The translations under genes were made by a program, and so were the position numbers. The notes beneath the pieces are model-generated. The model worked only from the letters and a program-made list of their open reading frames with translations, ran no database searches and had not been told where the DNA came from. Source: Kiritimatiellia bacterium (GTDB lineage: Bacteria > Verrucomicrobiota > Kiritimatiellia > PWTM01). From it: DNA of 64,000 nucleotides. The stretch lies in contig JAOACR010000007.1 of the NCBI GenBank assembly GCA_026417735.1, positions 1 to 64,000 on the forward strand. The letters run 5' to 3'. Below are positions 2 through 15,268 of this stretch, piece by piece; positions within the stretch are counted from its first letter, which is position 1; every line of letters starts with the position of its first letter.

Positions 2-25
2 CGCCACGAGGAGATGCGCGCGTGA
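2..25 (+). CDS. Possible 3' end of an upstream gene (partial)
   Basis: Reading from base 2 the frame is open and stops at TGA 23-25. That stop shares bases with the GTG start at 22, a GTGA overlap typical of translationally coupled genes. Partners of NtrC-type regulators are often sensor histidine kinases, so this could be the end of one, but seven codons cannot show it. Confidence 0.25.
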   Translation, partial: RHEEMRA

Positions 26-1491
26 AGCGGCTGCGGTCGGTGTTGATCGTGGACGACGAGCGGCCGACCCGCGAGGGGCTCGCCCGCGCGCTGGCGGGGG
101 ACTACCGGGTGCGTCTGGCCGAAAGCGGGGAGCAGGCGCTCGCGATGCTCGCGGAGGAGCCCGCGGACGTCGTACTGACGGACCTCCGGATGCCGGGGAT
201 GGACGGTCTGACACTGCTGCGGCGCATTCTCGCGCGACAGCCCCAGCCCGTCGTGATTTTGCTGACCGCCTACGGTAGCATCGAGACGGCGGTCGAGGCG
301 GTGAAGGCCGGCGCGTACGACTTTCTGCAGAAGCCGGTCAGCCTCGACCGGCTCGAGGTGCTGCTGAAGCGGGCGATCGAGACGCGCGACATGCGCACCG
401 AGAACCGCCGGCTGAAAGAGCAGCTCGACGTCCGCTTCGGCATCGAGCACATCGTGGGCCAGTCGGCGGCGATGTTGGAGGTGCTGCAGACGGTGCGGCA
501 GGTGGCGCCGACCCGCACGACCGTGCTGATTCAGGGCGAAAGCGGCACCGGCAAGGAGATGATCGCGCACGCGATTCATGGTCTCTCACCGCGGCGCGAC
601 GGGCCGTTCGTCGCAGTTCACTGTGCCGCGCTGGCGCCGACGCTGCTGGAAAGTGAGCTGTTCGGGCACGAGCGGGGTGCGTTCACCGGTGCGACCGAGC
701 GGCGGATCGGCCGGTTTGAGATCGCGGATGGCGGCACGCTGTTTCTCGACGAAATCGGCGAAATCTCACCGGCGATCCAGGTGAAAATCTTGCGCGTGAT
801 CGAGGAGCATCGCTTCGAGCGTGTGGGCGGCAGCATGCCCATTGACGTCGATGTGCGGTTGGTCACCGCGACCAACCGTGACCTGAAACGGATGGTGGAC
901 CAGGGGGCGTTTCGGGAGGACCTCTTCTTCCGGTTGAATGTGGTGTCGATCCGGCTGCCACCGCTGCGCGAGCGCCGCGAGGACATCCCGTTGCTGGCGG
1001 CGCACTTCGTCGAGGAGCTCGCCGCGCAGAACGGCCGTTCGCCGCCGAAGCTCTCCCCTGCGGTTTTGGACGTCTTCAACGTCTATTCCTGGCCCGGGAA
1101 TGTGCGCGAGCTGCGAAATGTGCTCGAGCGAATGATCGTGCTGGCGAGAGGTGAGGTGCTGGACCTCGGCGATCTGCCGCCGGAGCTGCGCGCGGTGGCA
1201 CCGGTCGCGATGGCGTCGTCGCCGGCGGCCCCGCGGTTGGAAGGGCTGACACTCGCGGAGGCGGAGCGCCGGCTGATCGAACAAGCGCTCACCGCAACCG
1301 GCGGCAATCGCGCGGAGGCGGCACGACGGCTGGGCATCAGTCGGCGGACGATTCACCGGAAGATCGAGGAGTATGGTCTGAACATTCCCCCGGGGCGCGG
1401 TGAACCGCTGCCGGCGGAGGAACGCTTGGCCCCTGCGCGCCGAGCGGACAGTTCGGACGCCGGCAGCCGGAGCGCGCCAAAGGGCGACTGA
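22..1491 (+). CDS. Sigma-54-dependent response regulator, NtrC/AtoC type
   Basis: This 489-residue protein has the three-part NtrC layout. The receiver domain (about 1-120) has the acidic pair D11/D12 and a phospho-acceptor Asp near residue 54 in a T-D-L-R-M-P motif. The AAA+ domain (about 145-370) has Walker A GESGTGKE from about 172, the sigma-54 contact loop GAFTGA near 219-224 and Walker B L-D-E-I-G-E. The Fis-type helix-turn-helix is at about 440-465 (GNRAEAARRLGISRRT). After phosphorylation by a partner kinase it should activate sigma-54 promoters. All catalytic motifs are intact. The GTG start has GAGGAG just upstream and overlaps the stop of a gene running in from the left edge. The last 30 residues are low complexity. 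Target genes cannot be told from the window. Confidence 0.96.
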   Translation: MKRLRSVLIVDDERPTREGLARALAGDYRVRLAESGEQALAMLAEEPADVVLTDLRMPGMDGLTLLRRILARQPQPVVILLTAYGSIETAVEAVKAGAYDFLQKPVSLDRLEVLLKRAIETRDMRTENRRLKEQLDVRFGIEHIVGQSAAMLEVLQTVRQVAPTRTTVLIQGESGTGKEMIAHAIHGLSPRRDGPFVAVHCAALAPTLLESELFGHERGAFTGATERRIGRFEIADGGTLFLDEIGEISPAIQVKILRVIEEHRFERVGGSMPIDVDVRLVTATNRDLKRMVDQGAFREDLFFRLNVVSIRLPPLRERREDIPLLAAHFVEELAAQNGRSPPKLSPAVLDVFNVYSWPGNVRELRNVLERMIVLARGEVLDLGDLPPELRAVAPVAMASSPAAPRLEGLTLAEAERRLIEQALTATGGNRAEAARRLGISRRTIHRKIEEYGLNIPPGRGEPLPAEERLAPARRADSSDAGSRSAPKGD

Positions 1492-1554: not shown

Positions 1555-1611
1555 TTCCAAGGCTTGGAAGACAGCCCTACGGTAGCCTCCAATCGTTGGA
1601 CCGCCGCGCCC
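1555..1611. repeat. Double-palindrome intergenic repeat, copy 1
   Basis: Two short palindromes of the form TCCAA-N3-TTGGA lie at 1556-1568 and 1588-1600, exactly 32 bp start to start. A conserved CGCGCCCG tail follows. The same arrangement recurs at 14764-14820 with the same 32-bp spacing and many identical bases between and after the arms. This copy sits between two convergent genes, so it could act on termination or mRNA ends. No mobile-element function is visible. Confidence 0.75.
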
Positions 1612-1619
1612 GGAGCGGA

Positions 1620-3617
1620 TCAGCGGGCCAGCGGTTCGGCTTTCGTACGAGCGGCGTCGGGCGCGTCCGAGGCGGCGAGCACCTGGCGCGCCAGTTGCCG
1701 CGCCAGCTCACGGTCCCGCTTGCCGATGGTTTCCGCAAGAGTGGCCATCGCGAGCAGAATTTCTTTCCGGGCGGCGGGGTCTTGGTCGAGCTGCTCGCGC
1801 AGCGCGGTGGCGGCGCGCGGATCCGGTACGGTCGCGAGCGCGGCGATCAGCGCAAGCCGGTCCTCCCGCTCGCGGGCCGCGCGCAGCGCGGCGAGCGCGG
1901 CATCGCAGCGCAGTTCGGCCGGCGCGTTCGTGGAGGCCAGCACCAGGCGGGCAATGCCCCGTGCTGCGAGCCGGCGGTCGGTCTCGTTCGCGTCCTCTTT
2001 TGCGACCAGCTCGCGGAGCAACGGCAGCGCCTCCGGGCCGGACCACTCCGACAGCGCGCGCGTGGCGGCGGTTCGCAGGCGCGGCTCCGGCGCCTCGAGC
2101 TGCTCGCGCAGCCACGTGAGTGCGTTGGTTCCTCCCACCACACCAATCACCGCTGCGACCGCGGCGCGCTCAGCGGTGCCACTCTTCTGCGCCAGCGCAA
2201 TCAGTCGCGCGCCGGCCGCCGCGTCATTGCGCAACCGTGTGAGCATAGCGCGAAGGTCGTTCAACGCGTCCGGCTCTTGCTGAGCGGCGAACCGCAACAG
2301 CGGCTCGAGCTGGTCGGCTCCGCCAACGACGCGCAGACCTTCCCGAGCCGCACGAGTGATGGCCGGCTCCGGATCGGTGAGCGCCTGCGCCAGTACCGTC
2401 GCGGCGCCGGCTTCCCGCCGGCGCGCAAGTGCGATCAGCGCGGCCGCCCGCCGCGGTGGCGCACCCGTGACGGCGGCGCGCAGAAGGTCGTCGCGCACGC
2501 TGTCGCCGGTGAGCGTTTCGATCGCGCGCATCGCGGTCCGCCGTAGCGGCGTTTCGGCTGACGCCCACTCCAACAGCGCCGACAGCGCCGCACCGCCCGC
2601 CAAACGCGCGTAGGCCTCGATTGCCCGGCCGGCGAGCGCGGGATCGTCGGACCGGCACTGTGCGGCGACAAAATCTTTCGCGGACTCGTCCAACAGGTCG
2701 ATCGCCCCGGCACGTGCGTCCGGGGGTAATTCGTTCCATGCGCGGACCAGAGCGGCGGAGAGCGCAGGGCCGCGCCGGGATGCGGCGGCGGCCAGCGCGG
2801 CCGTTCGGATCTGCACGCTGGCATCGGTGAGCGCAGTGGTCATGCGCCGGAGGGCCTCATCGGGGTCCGCCTCGCGTTCGATCAGCGTGGCGATCGCGGC
2901 GGCACGCAGCGCCGGAGGTGCGGTGGCGTCCGCCGACAGCCTCAGCAGCGCCGCGCGGCCGGCACCGCCGGAGCGGGCAGCGCCTTCCACCAGCGCTGCC
3001 GCGATGGCGGCGTCACCGGTGGTGGCGACGCGCTGCAATGCGGCAAGGGACGGTGCACCACCGAGGCGCCCCAGTGCGGCGGCGGCGGCCGCGCGGGTGG
3101 CGGGGTCCTCCAGCGCGCGCACCAGCAGCGGCATCGCGGCCGGATCGCGGCGGATGCCGAGTGAATGGACCAGCCCCAGCCGCAGCAGGGGGTCGGTTGT
3201 CGTCTCGAGCGCCGCACGCAACGCCGCGCCCGCTTCGGCGGAGGGGTTCACTTCCAGTGCTCGTCGTGCCGCGTCGCGCAGTTCGCGCTCGGGCTCCGTC
3301 AGGGCGGCTGCGAGCACCGGCACGCAGTTCGATCCGCCAACGGTCTCAAGTTGTGCCATCAGCTCGATGCGCACCGCAGCGGGCAGGGTCCGGTCCCCGG
3401 CCCGCGCGGCCAGTGCGCGTTCGAGTTCCGCGCGCTCGTTGCCGCGCTCGGGGGCCGACGCGCGGGCGGTGATACCGCGCAGCAGCTGGCGGGCGTCGCC
3501 GCGCGTCGCGGGATTGGCGTCGGCCAGCTGGGGCAGCAGTCGGGCGAGATCCTCTTCGACACTGGCCAGCGCGGTCGTCGCGCTGAGCGCCCACAGCAGC
3601 AATGGAACGAGAAGCAC
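1620..3617 (-). CDS. Exported HEAT-repeat protein
   Basis: This 665-residue protein has an N-terminal signal peptide (hydrophobic residues 2-14, cleavage probably after A-L-A near 18). The rest is repeated pairs of Ala/Leu/Arg-rich helices of about 30 residues, the PBS-lyase HEAT type (for example L-V-R-A-L-E-D-P-A-T-R-A-A-A-A-A-A-L-G). No catalytic domain is visible, so it is probably a periplasmic scaffold. The GTG start at 3617 is set by a near-perfect Shine-Dalgarno, AGGAGGT, 7 bases upstream. The gene lies 22 bases downstream of the oxidoreductase on the same strand and may be co-transcribed with it. The function is unknown. Confidence 0.85.
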   Translation of the reverse strand: MLLVPLLLWALSATTALASVEEDLARLLPQLADANPATRGDARQLLRGITARASAPERGNERAELERALAARAGDRTLPAAVRIELMAQLETVGGSNCVPVLAAALTEPERELRDAARRALEVNPSAEAGAALRAALETTTDPLLRLGLVHSLGIRRDPAAMPLLVRALEDPATRAAAAAALGRLGGAPSLAALQRVATTGDAAIAAALVEGAARSGGAGRAALLRLSADATAPPALRAAAIATLIEREADPDEALRRMTTALTDASVQIRTAALAAAASRRGPALSAALVRAWNELPPDARAGAIDLLDESAKDFVAAQCRSDDPALAGRAIEAYARLAGGAALSALLEWASAETPLRRTAMRAIETLTGDSVRDDLLRAAVTGAPPRRAAALIALARRREAGAATVLAQALTDPEPAITRAAREGLRVVGGADQLEPLLRFAAQQEPDALNDLRAMLTRLRNDAAAGARLIALAQKSGTAERAAVAAVIGVVGGTNALTWLREQLEAPEPRLRTAATRALSEWSGPEALPLLRELVAKEDANETDRRLAARGIARLVLASTNAPAELRCDAALAALRAAREREDRLALIAALATVPDPRAATALREQLDQDPAARKEILLAMATLAETIGKRDRELARQLARQVLAASDAPDAARTKAEPLAR

Positions 3618-12024: not shown

Positions 12025-14700
12025 ATGGACGACTTTCCGACCAAATACGACCCGCGCGAGGTCGAGCCGCGCTGGGAGGCCGAGTGGACTCGGCGCCGGC
12101 TCTGGCACGTGGAACCGGACGGTCCCGGTGAGCCCTACGTGATTGTGATCCCGCCGCCGAACGTCACCGGCGTGCTGCACATGGGCCATGCGCTGAACAA
12201 CACGATCCAGGACGTACTGATCCGCTGGCAGCGGATGCGCGGCCGGCGCGCCCTCTGGGTGCCCGGCACCGACCATGCGGGCATCGCGACGCAGAACGTT
12301 GTCGAGCGCGAGCTCCGACGCGAGCACCTGCGTCGGGAGGACCTCGGGCGCGAGGAGTTTCTGCGCCGCGTGTGGCGCTGGCGCGAGGAAAAGGGCGGCA
12401 CGATTATCCGACAGCTTCACCGTCTCGGGGCTTCGTGCGACTGGGATCGCGAGCGGTTCACCATGGACGAGGGGCTCAGCCGCGCGGTCGAGGAGGTGTT
12501 CATCCGCCTGTACGAGAAAGGGCTGATCTACCGCGGCCATTACATCGTGAACTGGTGCCCTCGCTGCACCACCGCGTTGTCCGACGAGGAGAGCGAACAT
12601 CGCGAGATCCGCGGCCACCTCTATCACATCCGCTATCCGGTCGTCGGTGGCGGGCCGCCCTCGCACATCGTCGTGGCGACGACGCGGCCGGAGACGCTGC
12701 TGGGCGATACCGCGGTCGCGATGAACCCGGCCGACGAACGTCACCGCCCCCTGCTGGGCCGGCGCGCAGTGCTACCGGTGCTCGGGCGCGAGATCCCGTT
12801 CGTCGCCGACGAGACGGTGGACCCCGCCTTCGGCACCGGACTGGTGAAGGTGACGCCCGCGCACGACCCAAACGACTTCGCGATCGCGCAGCGGCACGGT
12901 CTGCCCGCGCTGAACGTGATGGACGATCACGGCCGGATGAACGAAAACGCCGGCCCGTACGCGGGTCTCGACCGCTTTGAGTGCCGCCGGCGCATCCTCG
13001 CGGATCTCGAGCGCGACGGGCTGCTCGAGCGCGTCGAGGATCACGTGCACGCGGTCGGACACTGCTACCGGTGCCACACGGTCGTTGAGCCGCGCCTCTC
13101 CCGGCAGTGGTTTGTGCGAATGAAACCTCTCGCGGAGCCGGCGGCCGAGGCGGTGCGGCGCGGTGAGGTGCGATTCGTGCCGGAGCGCTGGACCGGCGTG
13201 TATCTGCAGTGGATGGACAACATCCGGGACTGGTGCATCTCGCGTCAGATCTGGTGGGGGCACCGGATCCCCGTCTTCAGCTGCGCCGCCTGTGGCGACA
13301 CCTGGGCGGCGCGCGGCCGGCCCGGCACCTGCCGCGCCTGCGGCGCGCCGGAGCCGGCGCAGGACCCCGACGTGCTCGACACCTGGTTTTCGTCGTGGCT
13401 GTGGCCGTTCAGCGTGTTCGGCTGGCCGGAGCGCACGCCCGAGCTGGCCGCGTTCTACCCCACCACCACGCTCGTCACCGCGTCGGAGATCATCTTCTTC
13501 TGGGTCGCGCGGATGATCATGGCCGGCATTGAGTTCATGGGGCGGCCGCCCTTTTCCACCGTGGTGATCCACGGCACCGTGCGCGACGACGTCGGCCGCA
13601 AGATGTCGAAGAGTCTCGGCAATGCGATCGATCCGCTGCAGGTGATCGAGGCCACCAGCGCCGACGCGCTGCGCTCCAGCCTGATGATGCTCACCGCGCT
13701 CGGGCAGGATGTGCAGCTGTCCGACGCGAAGTTCGAGGTCGGCCGCAACTTTGCGACGAAGGTCTGGAACGCGGCGAGGTTTCTGCACCTGCAGCGGGGC
13801 GACGGCGCACCGCGCGCTCCTCTGGAGTCGCTGGCGGGCCGACTGGCGCCGGACGACCAGCACGTGCTGGACCGGCTCGACGCCGCGATCCGCGCCTGCG
13901 ATGACGCGCTGGAGAAGTTTCGGTTCAACGACTATGCGTTGGCGGCCTATGACTTTGTCTGGCACGAGTTCTGCGACTGGTACGTCGAGTACGCGAAGCT
14001 TCCGTTGCAGGGCGCCGACCCGGCGCGGCGCGCGGTGACGCTGGCCGTGCTCCACCATGTGCTGGAGACCTCGCTGCGGCTGTTGCAGCCACTCATGCCG
14101 TTCCTCACCGAGGAACTGTGGCACCGGATGGGCTACGGCGGCCCGCAGCAGCACCTGGCGCTGGCCCCCTGGCCGCGGCCGGTCGAGCCGGAGCTGCGCG
14201 CCGCGCTGATTCCGGATCCTTCCGTACCCGCCCACGTCGCCGACCGCCAGGCGCTGATCCGTGCCGTGCGGAACCTGCGCGCCGACCTGGGGCTGGCGCC
14301 GCAGGAAACTGCCGCGCTGGTGGTGCGGCCTGCCGATGCCGTCGCGGCGGCGCGGCTGGAGGCGGACCGGCCGGTGCTGCAGCTGTTTTGCCGGGCACCG
14401 GAGGTGCGCGTCGCGCCGGACTTCATGCCCGCGCGGCCGATGCCCAGCGCGGTCAGTCGGATCGCGACGGTGTTTCTCGACGTGCACCACATCGGAGACC
14501 TCGCCGGCCACGCGGCGAAGGTGCGCGCGCGGTTGCAGCAGGCGGAGGCGGATCTTGCGCGCATCGAGGCGAAGCTGGCGAACGAGGCGTTCCTTGCGCG
14601 CGCGAAACCCGAGGCGATTGCGCAGCAGCAAGCCCGCCGCGAGGAGCTGCGGGCCCAGCTCGAAAAGCTGCGCGAGCTGGTCGCGGTGTTCGAGGGCTGA
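12025..14700 (+). CDS. valS: Valine--tRNA ligase
   Basis: This 891-residue class Ia synthetase charges tRNA-Val. The HIGH motif appears as H-M-G-H at 52-55. The CP1 editing domain (about 190-340) has the V-A-T-T-R-P-E-T-L-L-G-D-T-A-V signature that clears mischarged threonine. KMSKS is at 526-530 in the exact form K-M-S-K-S. Zinc-type Cys clusters lie near 345-355 (C-Y-R-C) and 417-440 (C-A-A-C...C-R-A-C). The anticodon-binding domain follows. The last 60 residues form the Arg/Glu-rich coiled coil typical of ValRS. The length is normal and no key motif is lost. The next gene starts 22 bases after the stop. Confidence 0.98.
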   Translation: MDDFPTKYDPREVEPRWEAEWTRRRLWHVEPDGPGEPYVIVIPPPNVTGVLHMGHALNNTIQDVLIRWQRMRGRRALWVPGTDHAGIATQNVVERELRREHLRREDLGREEFLRRVWRWREEKGGTIIRQLHRLGASCDWDRERFTMDEGLSRAVEEVFIRLYEKGLIYRGHYIVNWCPRCTTALSDEESEHREIRGHLYHIRYPVVGGGPPSHIVVATTRPETLLGDTAVAMNPADERHRPLLGRRAVLPVLGREIPFVADETVDPAFGTGLVKVTPAHDPNDFAIAQRHGLPALNVMDDHGRMNENAGPYAGLDRFECRRRILADLERDGLLERVEDHVHAVGHCYRCHTVVEPRLSRQWFVRMKPLAEPAAEAVRRGEVRFVPERWTGVYLQWMDNIRDWCISRQIWWGHRIPVFSCAACGDTWAARGRPGTCRACGAPEPAQDPDVLDTWFSSWLWPFSVFGWPERTPELAAFYPTTTLVTASEIIFFWVARMIMAGIEFMGRPPFSTVVIHGTVRDDVGRKMSKSLGNAIDPLQVIEATSADALRSSLMMLTALGQDVQLSDAKFEVGRNFATKVWNAARFLHLQRGDGAPRAPLESLAGRLAPDDQHVLDRLDAAIRACDDALEKFRFNDYALAAYDFVWHEFCDWYVEYAKLPLQGADPARRAVTLAVLHHVLETSLRLLQPLMPFLTEELWHRMGYGGPQQHLALAPWPRPVEPELRAALIPDPSVPAHVADRQALIRAVRNLRADLGLAPQETAALVVRPADAVAAARLEADRPVLQLFCRAPEVRVAPDFMPARPMPSAVSRIATVFLDVHHIGDLAGHAAKVRARLQQAEADLARIEAKLANEAFLARAKPEAIAQQQARREELRAQLEKLRELVAVFEG

Positions 14701-14722
14701 GATGCGCCCCGGAGGTCCCGCG

Positions 14723-15268
14723 GTGACCACCCGAACCGATCCCGGCACCGGCCGCGTGGCGTCGTCCAAGGATTGGACGGCCGCCACGCGGGTGCCTCCA
14801 ACCCTTGGACGTCGCGCCCGATGGGCCGGCACCGGCGCACTGCTGGCCGCGGCCACGGCGCTGGCTGTCGGTTGCGGCGACTTCGGCCGGCGCTACTGGA
14901 CGCCCACGCCGGAGCAGCGTTCTGCGGCCGAACGTATTGCGAAGTTTCACGTGTTCACGAACCTTTCCGATCAGGCCGGCCCGGGGGCGCTGACCAAGGT
15001 GACGCTGGGTCCGGACGGCCTGCCGCGCGATTACCCCATCGCGTTCACGATCGGCGGCACGCCGTATGCGCGTTACCGGACCAGGTTCTGGGGCGGAATC
15101 GTCAGGGGGCGGCGACTGGTCCACGTGGAGTACTTCGACCCGGCCGCGATCCCGGATTGGGAGCGGCGCGACGAGCCGGCGGCGGAGTTTCCCGCGTTCT
15201 TCCGCGTGTCGGTGGATGTCGCGGCCGCCCGCACGGTGGCCGACTCACGGTCCGGCGGCGCGCGGTGA
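14723..15268 (+). CDS. Small lipoprotein of unknown function
   Basis: From GTG 14723 this gives 181 residues. A long basic N-region precedes a hydrophobic core and the lipobox L-A-V-G-C, then a soluble domain of about 130 residues with no recognised family. GTG 14723 is chosen because GGAGGT ends 6 bases upstream. ATG 14702 (GAGGG before it) and GTG 14792 are alternatives. The N-region, up to the Arg-rich stretch before the core, is encoded by the double-palindrome repeat at 14764-14820. The repeat has therefore either inserted into the gene or been recruited as leader sequence. The stop overlaps the cupin start (GTGA, 15265-15268). Confidence 0.7.
   Translation: MTTRTDPGTGRVASSKDWTAATRVPPTLGRRARWAGTGALLAAATALAVGCGDFGRRYWTPTPEQRSAAERIAKFHVFTNLSDQAGPGALTKVTLGPDGLPRDYPIAFTIGGTPYARYRTRFWGGIVRGRRLVHVEYFDPAAIPDWERRDEPAAEFPAFFRVSVDVAAARTVADSRSGGAR
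14764..14820. repeat. Double-palindrome repeat, copy 2, inside a coding region
   Basis: The arms TCCAA-N3-TTGGA lie at 14765-14777 and 14797-14809, again 32 bp start to start, and are followed by CGCGCCCG. Compared with copy 1 (1555-1611) the bases around and between the arms are largely conserved, with one single-base length difference near the end. This copy lies in frame in the leader-encoding part of the lipoprotein gene. Confidence 0.75.

Follow-up and report, generated by a model that had tools for sequence, protein, structure and literature searches.

The window, that is, the whole 64,000-nucleotide stretch of DNA that was analysed, contains two copies of a paired palindrome. Copy 1 consists of palindrome 1A (TCCAAGGCTTGGA, positions 1556 - 1568), a 19 bp spacer (1569 - 1587) and palindrome 1B (TCCAATCGTTGGA, 1588 - 1600). 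Copy 2 consists of palindrome 2A (TCCAAGGATTGGA, 14765 - 14777), a 19 bp spacer (14778 - 14796) and palindrome 2B (TCCAACCCTTGGA, 14797 - 14809). None of these parts has a strand. All four palindromes match TCCAA-N3-TTGGA exactly and the members of each pair lie 32 bp apart, start to start, as an earlier note on this DNA had described. Four matches in the window compare with 0.59 expected when up to one mismatch is allowed, and four were reached by no shuffled sequence. The note had placed the copies at 1555 - 1611 and 14764 - 14820. The pairs are real, but their precise extents are 1556 - 1600 and 14765 - 14809. The longer extents took in a shared tail, CGCGCCCG, that is one base out of register between the copies (1605 - 1612 compared to 14813 - 14820) and is absent after the genome's other copies. 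The tail lies outside the repeat family, and its GC-rich match most likely arose by chance. Nor are there conserved bases between the palindromes, as had been claimed. The spacer of copy 1 differs from that of copy 2, and the spacers of this genome (G000) resemble each other no better than after shuffling of their columns (likeness 7.73 versus 7.47 +/- 0.27).

Copy 1 is situated in a convergent gap, between two gene ends. The stop codon of a sigma-54 response regulator gene (22 - 1491, plus strand; domains Response_reg, Sigma54_activat and HTH_8) is 64 bp before the copy, and that of a HEAT-repeat protein gene (1620 - 3617, minus strand) is 19 bp after it. The gene order around copy 1 differs in related genomes. 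Copy 2 follows the stop codon of valS, the valyl-tRNA synthetase gene (12025 - 14700, plus strand), and falls within a downstream gene for a putative lipoprotein that belongs to no Pfam family (14702 - 15268, plus strand). The start codon of this gene is uncertain. Its likely position is upstream of copy 2, so that the copy is probably translated as part of a poorly constrained N-terminal stretch that precedes the signal peptide.

The two copies belong to a large family. The genome from which the window comes (3.09 Mb in 24 contigs) contains 102 exact palindromes and 28 pairs, mostly intergenic, compared to 2 palindromes and no pairs for a control in which the palindrome pattern is read backwards; the further copies that the earlier note called for thus exist. 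The richest genomes, of 5.3 and 6.7 Mb, contain 507 and 1,536 pairs, respectively; the larger has one pair per about 4.4 kb, and the control finds none in either. Pairs occur in 41 of 388 genomes sampled from the phylum, 40 of them in the class Kiritimatiellia. Among the matches listed, the named records that carry pairs are labeled mostly as Kiritimatiellae, Lentisphaerae or Verrucomicrobia. Within the class the repeat is patchily distributed, being present in all nine genomes of the window's family and absent from several other families. Even sister species of one genus can differ greatly in copy number, with 0 in G030 and 81 in G041. A literature search largely confined to sources other than subscription papers and preprints returned no description of the motif. 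The sole carrier outside the class (G100) has one four-unit array (L308, G100:C52:13636-13743), the units of which are unevenly spaced at 33, 29 and 33 bp. A phage origin was considered and rejected, as only 10 stretches in a viral collection hold a pair and the genes around them are a mixture of phage and bacterial ones.

Alignment of more than 200 pairs, in which the arms are fixed by the search, gives the unit consensus TTTCCAA-nSn-TTGGAAA. The bases adjoining the arms are T or A in 87 - 98% of cases, the central base is almost always G or C, and the remaining positions between the arms are free. The unit is symmetric throughout. Units are assembled into arrays of 2 to 7, with spacings of 22, 31/32 or 42 bp, corresponding to 2, 3 or 4 helical turns. 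When up to two mismatches are permitted, nearly all partners within 60 bp are found at 21 - 22, 30 - 33 or 50 - 53 bp, and more distant partners are at 62 - 64, 82 - 84, 93 - 95 and 103 - 105 bp. One genome (G056) uses only spacings of 22, 30 - 32 and 40/42 bp, again 2, 3 and 4 turns. Solitary copies in the window's genome often retain a decayed partner at 32 bp. The units thus lie on one face of the double helix, as would sites for cooperating dimers, and the protein-binding constraint with helical spacing that was proposed from the window alone gains support from this phasing.

Most clusters are located between genes as called by a simple codon-model gene finder, whereas only 13% of random positions are outside genes; about a fifth of the copies are inside predicted genes. 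Elements show no preference for gap orientation and occur in tandem, divergent and convergent gaps alike. For example, among gaps of at least 60 bp in G058, the genome with the highest density, an element is present in 36 of 74 tandem (49%), 13 of 17 divergent (76%) and 8 of 11 convergent ones (73%). Within tandem gaps, the distance from a site to the stop of the preceding gene tends to be shorter than that to the start of the next. A gene family, function or regulon common to the flanking genes was sought and not found. Along the chromosome, the clusters of G058 are spaced too evenly for chance (mean 3.2 kb, coefficient of variation 0.40 compared to 0.64 - 0.67 for random intergenic placement, P < 0.001), and those of G059 are likewise more even than random intergenic placement (P = 0.004). 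Clusters in the window's genome lack close neighbors (minimum distance 12.8 kb; tenth-percentile gap, P = 5e-5). Even spacing was seen in these three of the five genomes tested and is absent in G061 and G046. On one 1.4-Mb contig of a draft genome, in which the origin was not located, no departure from a uniform distribution was seen (Kolmogorov-Smirnov P = 0.49).

The places of the elements are conserved between species, as judged from one 20-kb stretch compared between G059 and its congener G040 and from the valS locus compared between the window's genome and its congener G002. All five elements in the G059 stretch have a match at the corresponding place in G040, with altered numbers of units and diverged spacers. 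One of the five is inside a coding region. Among the G040 counterparts, one is mismatched in both of its units, or in every unit that it has, and another lacks a nucleotide match on one side. Copy 2 recurs beside valS in G002, where its spacer has diverged, and is decayed at that place in G001. When the six orthologous comparisons are pooled, 91 of 100 arm positions (91%) are identical compared to 15 of 30 in the loops and 19 of 51 in the spacer cores (37%). On these alignments, the arms appear to be under purifying selection, with the places conserved and the spacers free to change. Copying of a mobile unit was rejected as the source of the family, since the spacers of the window's genome have no similarity to each other; likeness slightly above chance was found in G058 and, for G059, among spacers of the 31-bp class.

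Within a genome, the half-sites of a palindrome vary independently of each other. At the variable positions, no covariation was detected within G000, G058 or G059, and the apparent covariation in the pooled set is due to the mixing of genomes with different preferences. Compensatory changes within genomes are also absent between the two loops of a pair and in the outer flanks. A third, central palindrome with a compensatory change, suspected from the copies in the window, failed the spacer test.

The invariant palindromic arms, the independent half-sites, the whole-turn spacing and the conservation of place with free spacers lead us to infer that the family is a set of double-stranded DNA sites for a homodimer that occupies one face of the DNA. 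We consider it probable, from sequence patterns, that this homodimer is cooperative and plays an architectural part, as a nucleoid-associated or insulator-like protein, at the borders of transcription units. Each TTTCCAA-nSn-TTGGAAA would be read by one dimer, one subunit per half-site. Adjacent dimers, 2, 3 or 4 turns apart and on the same face, would cooperate in binding, each array comprising 2 to 7 units. Set at intergenic borders all along the chromosome whatever the orientation of the genes, the arrays would serve as assembly points for a protein that shapes or separates chromosome segments. Cooperativity need not be universal, because some genomes hold solitary palindromes: G023 and G046 have 70 - 90 solitary TTCCAA-N3-TTGGAA palindromes each, but only 3 and 1 pairs, respectively, whereas 595 palindromes and 98 pairs occur in their congener G056. 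An architectural or boundary role is favored over promoter control because the placement at gene borders is independent of orientation and is even at short range. The sites are genome-wide and indifferent to gene function, as is expected of a chromosome organizer, and of the three identities offered in the earlier note a chromosome-organizing site is the best-fitting, if unproven, candidate; a REP-like element, in the sense of one spread by a RAYT, and a cleavage or termination signal are both disfavored. A bolder proposal, which we put forward only tentatively, is that part of the Kiritimatiellia possesses an undescribed bacterial chromatin system: a single protein specific to the lineage would assemble helically phased arrays, regularly spaced, at a large fraction of the borders between transcription units, and make them boundary elements.

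Palindromic arms and helical phasing would suit any cooperative dimer, and the repeats could instead serve a global transcription factor as operators; bound to tandem palindromes along one face of the helix, it would regulate hundreds of genes and have no architectural role. Factors of the IclR family typically bind palindromes placed in tandem at about 2 turns, and separations of 3 and 4 turns are also overrepresented (PMC8222616), so the likeness extends to all three spacings. Nevertheless, the repeats differ from such operators in their number (hundreds to more than 1,000 loci per genome), their independence of gene orientation and their longer arrays, and no coherent regulon was seen. Convergent gaps, which hold no promoter for either neighbor, are filled as often as divergent ones; the flanking genes share neither family nor function; the sites in tandem gaps lean away from the downstream start; and a count of up to 1,536 pairs in one genome would be large for a regulon. 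We regard this explanation as rather unlikely.

An RNA-level signal, such as a terminator, a processing site or a hairpin at mRNA ends, is improbable. The arms could fold as RNA, the sites are slightly nearer to gene ends, and copy 2 folds unusually well in comparison to shuffled sequences (z -4.1 and -5.3). This fold, however, is due to a loop GGA that faces CCC, together with the flanks, and is not general to the family; copy 1 folds no better than its shuffles. Neither copy has a terminator-like site (a G+C-rich stem followed by a T run), and an Rfam search of the window matched only a tRNA and neither copy. Furthermore, spacing by 2, 3 or 4 turns is a property of DNA, and divergent gaps are occupied as much as others. 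The half-sites do not covary, which speaks against the RNA-structure constraint suggested earlier and, along with the missing terminator, against a cleavage or termination signal.

Mobile repeats of the REP/BIME kind, spread by a RAYT (an IS200/IS605-type Y1 transposase), are a most improbable source. REPs are short extragenic palindromes present in hundreds of copies and often clustered; they also act as protein sites, and chromosome-organizing roles have been proposed for them (PMC2817692). The present repeats are likewise short, dispersed, clustered, abundant and mostly extragenic, and patchy across species. In contrast to REPs, they are fully symmetric and helically spaced, with free spacers, and they keep their positions between species while the spacers diverge. 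Their consensus has neither an asymmetric unit nor the GTAG-type 5' head that is typical of REPs (Table 1 of PMC2817692). RAYT-driven spread is contradicted by the lack of PF01797, the family of the RAYT-type Y1 transposase, in seven carriers, the window's genome included (G000 - G003, G005, G022 and G035), and many non-carriers have it; presence of PF01797 does not correlate with the repeats. As a separate observation, G036 has 62 Y1_Tnp matches, far more than its relatives. A self-recognition tag, for instance a DNA-uptake or recombination signal, would account for a dense, genome-wide element, but such tags are single short words and not paired, phased palindromes lying mostly between genes, and this origin is hardly credible.

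The sites of Noc, SlmA and MatP are genome-wide palindromes bound by DNA-binding organizer proteins, and the architectural reading likens the repeats to these, with a binder that we infer. The sequences are different, the present units form phased arrays of 2 to 7, and no uneven distribution was seen along the 1.4-Mb contig. NrdR boxes are two palindromes about three turns apart, as in the window, but are found only at ribonucleotide reductase genes; the repeats differ from them in sequence and are not confined to such genes. A dense, helix-phased element conserved in place between species would clearly mark a hitherto unknown protein, either a chromosome organizer or a global regulator, in a class that has received little study. 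No candidate gene for the binder was found beside the largest arrays. Since the number of copies varies from 0 to hundreds among relatives, a comparison of their genes should point straight to the binder.

The flanks of the unit differ between lineages. In G061 they are extended, to GACTTCCAA-nSn-TTGGAAGTC, and the binder may have coevolved with this lineage-specific extension. In G056, the spacers of pairs at 42 bp (e.g. G056:C18:10489-10543) often contain a further short inverted repeat (GCAGGCTGAGCCTGC, CCTATGCAATAGG or GCCACAGCGTGGC) that may belong to another small family of repeats.
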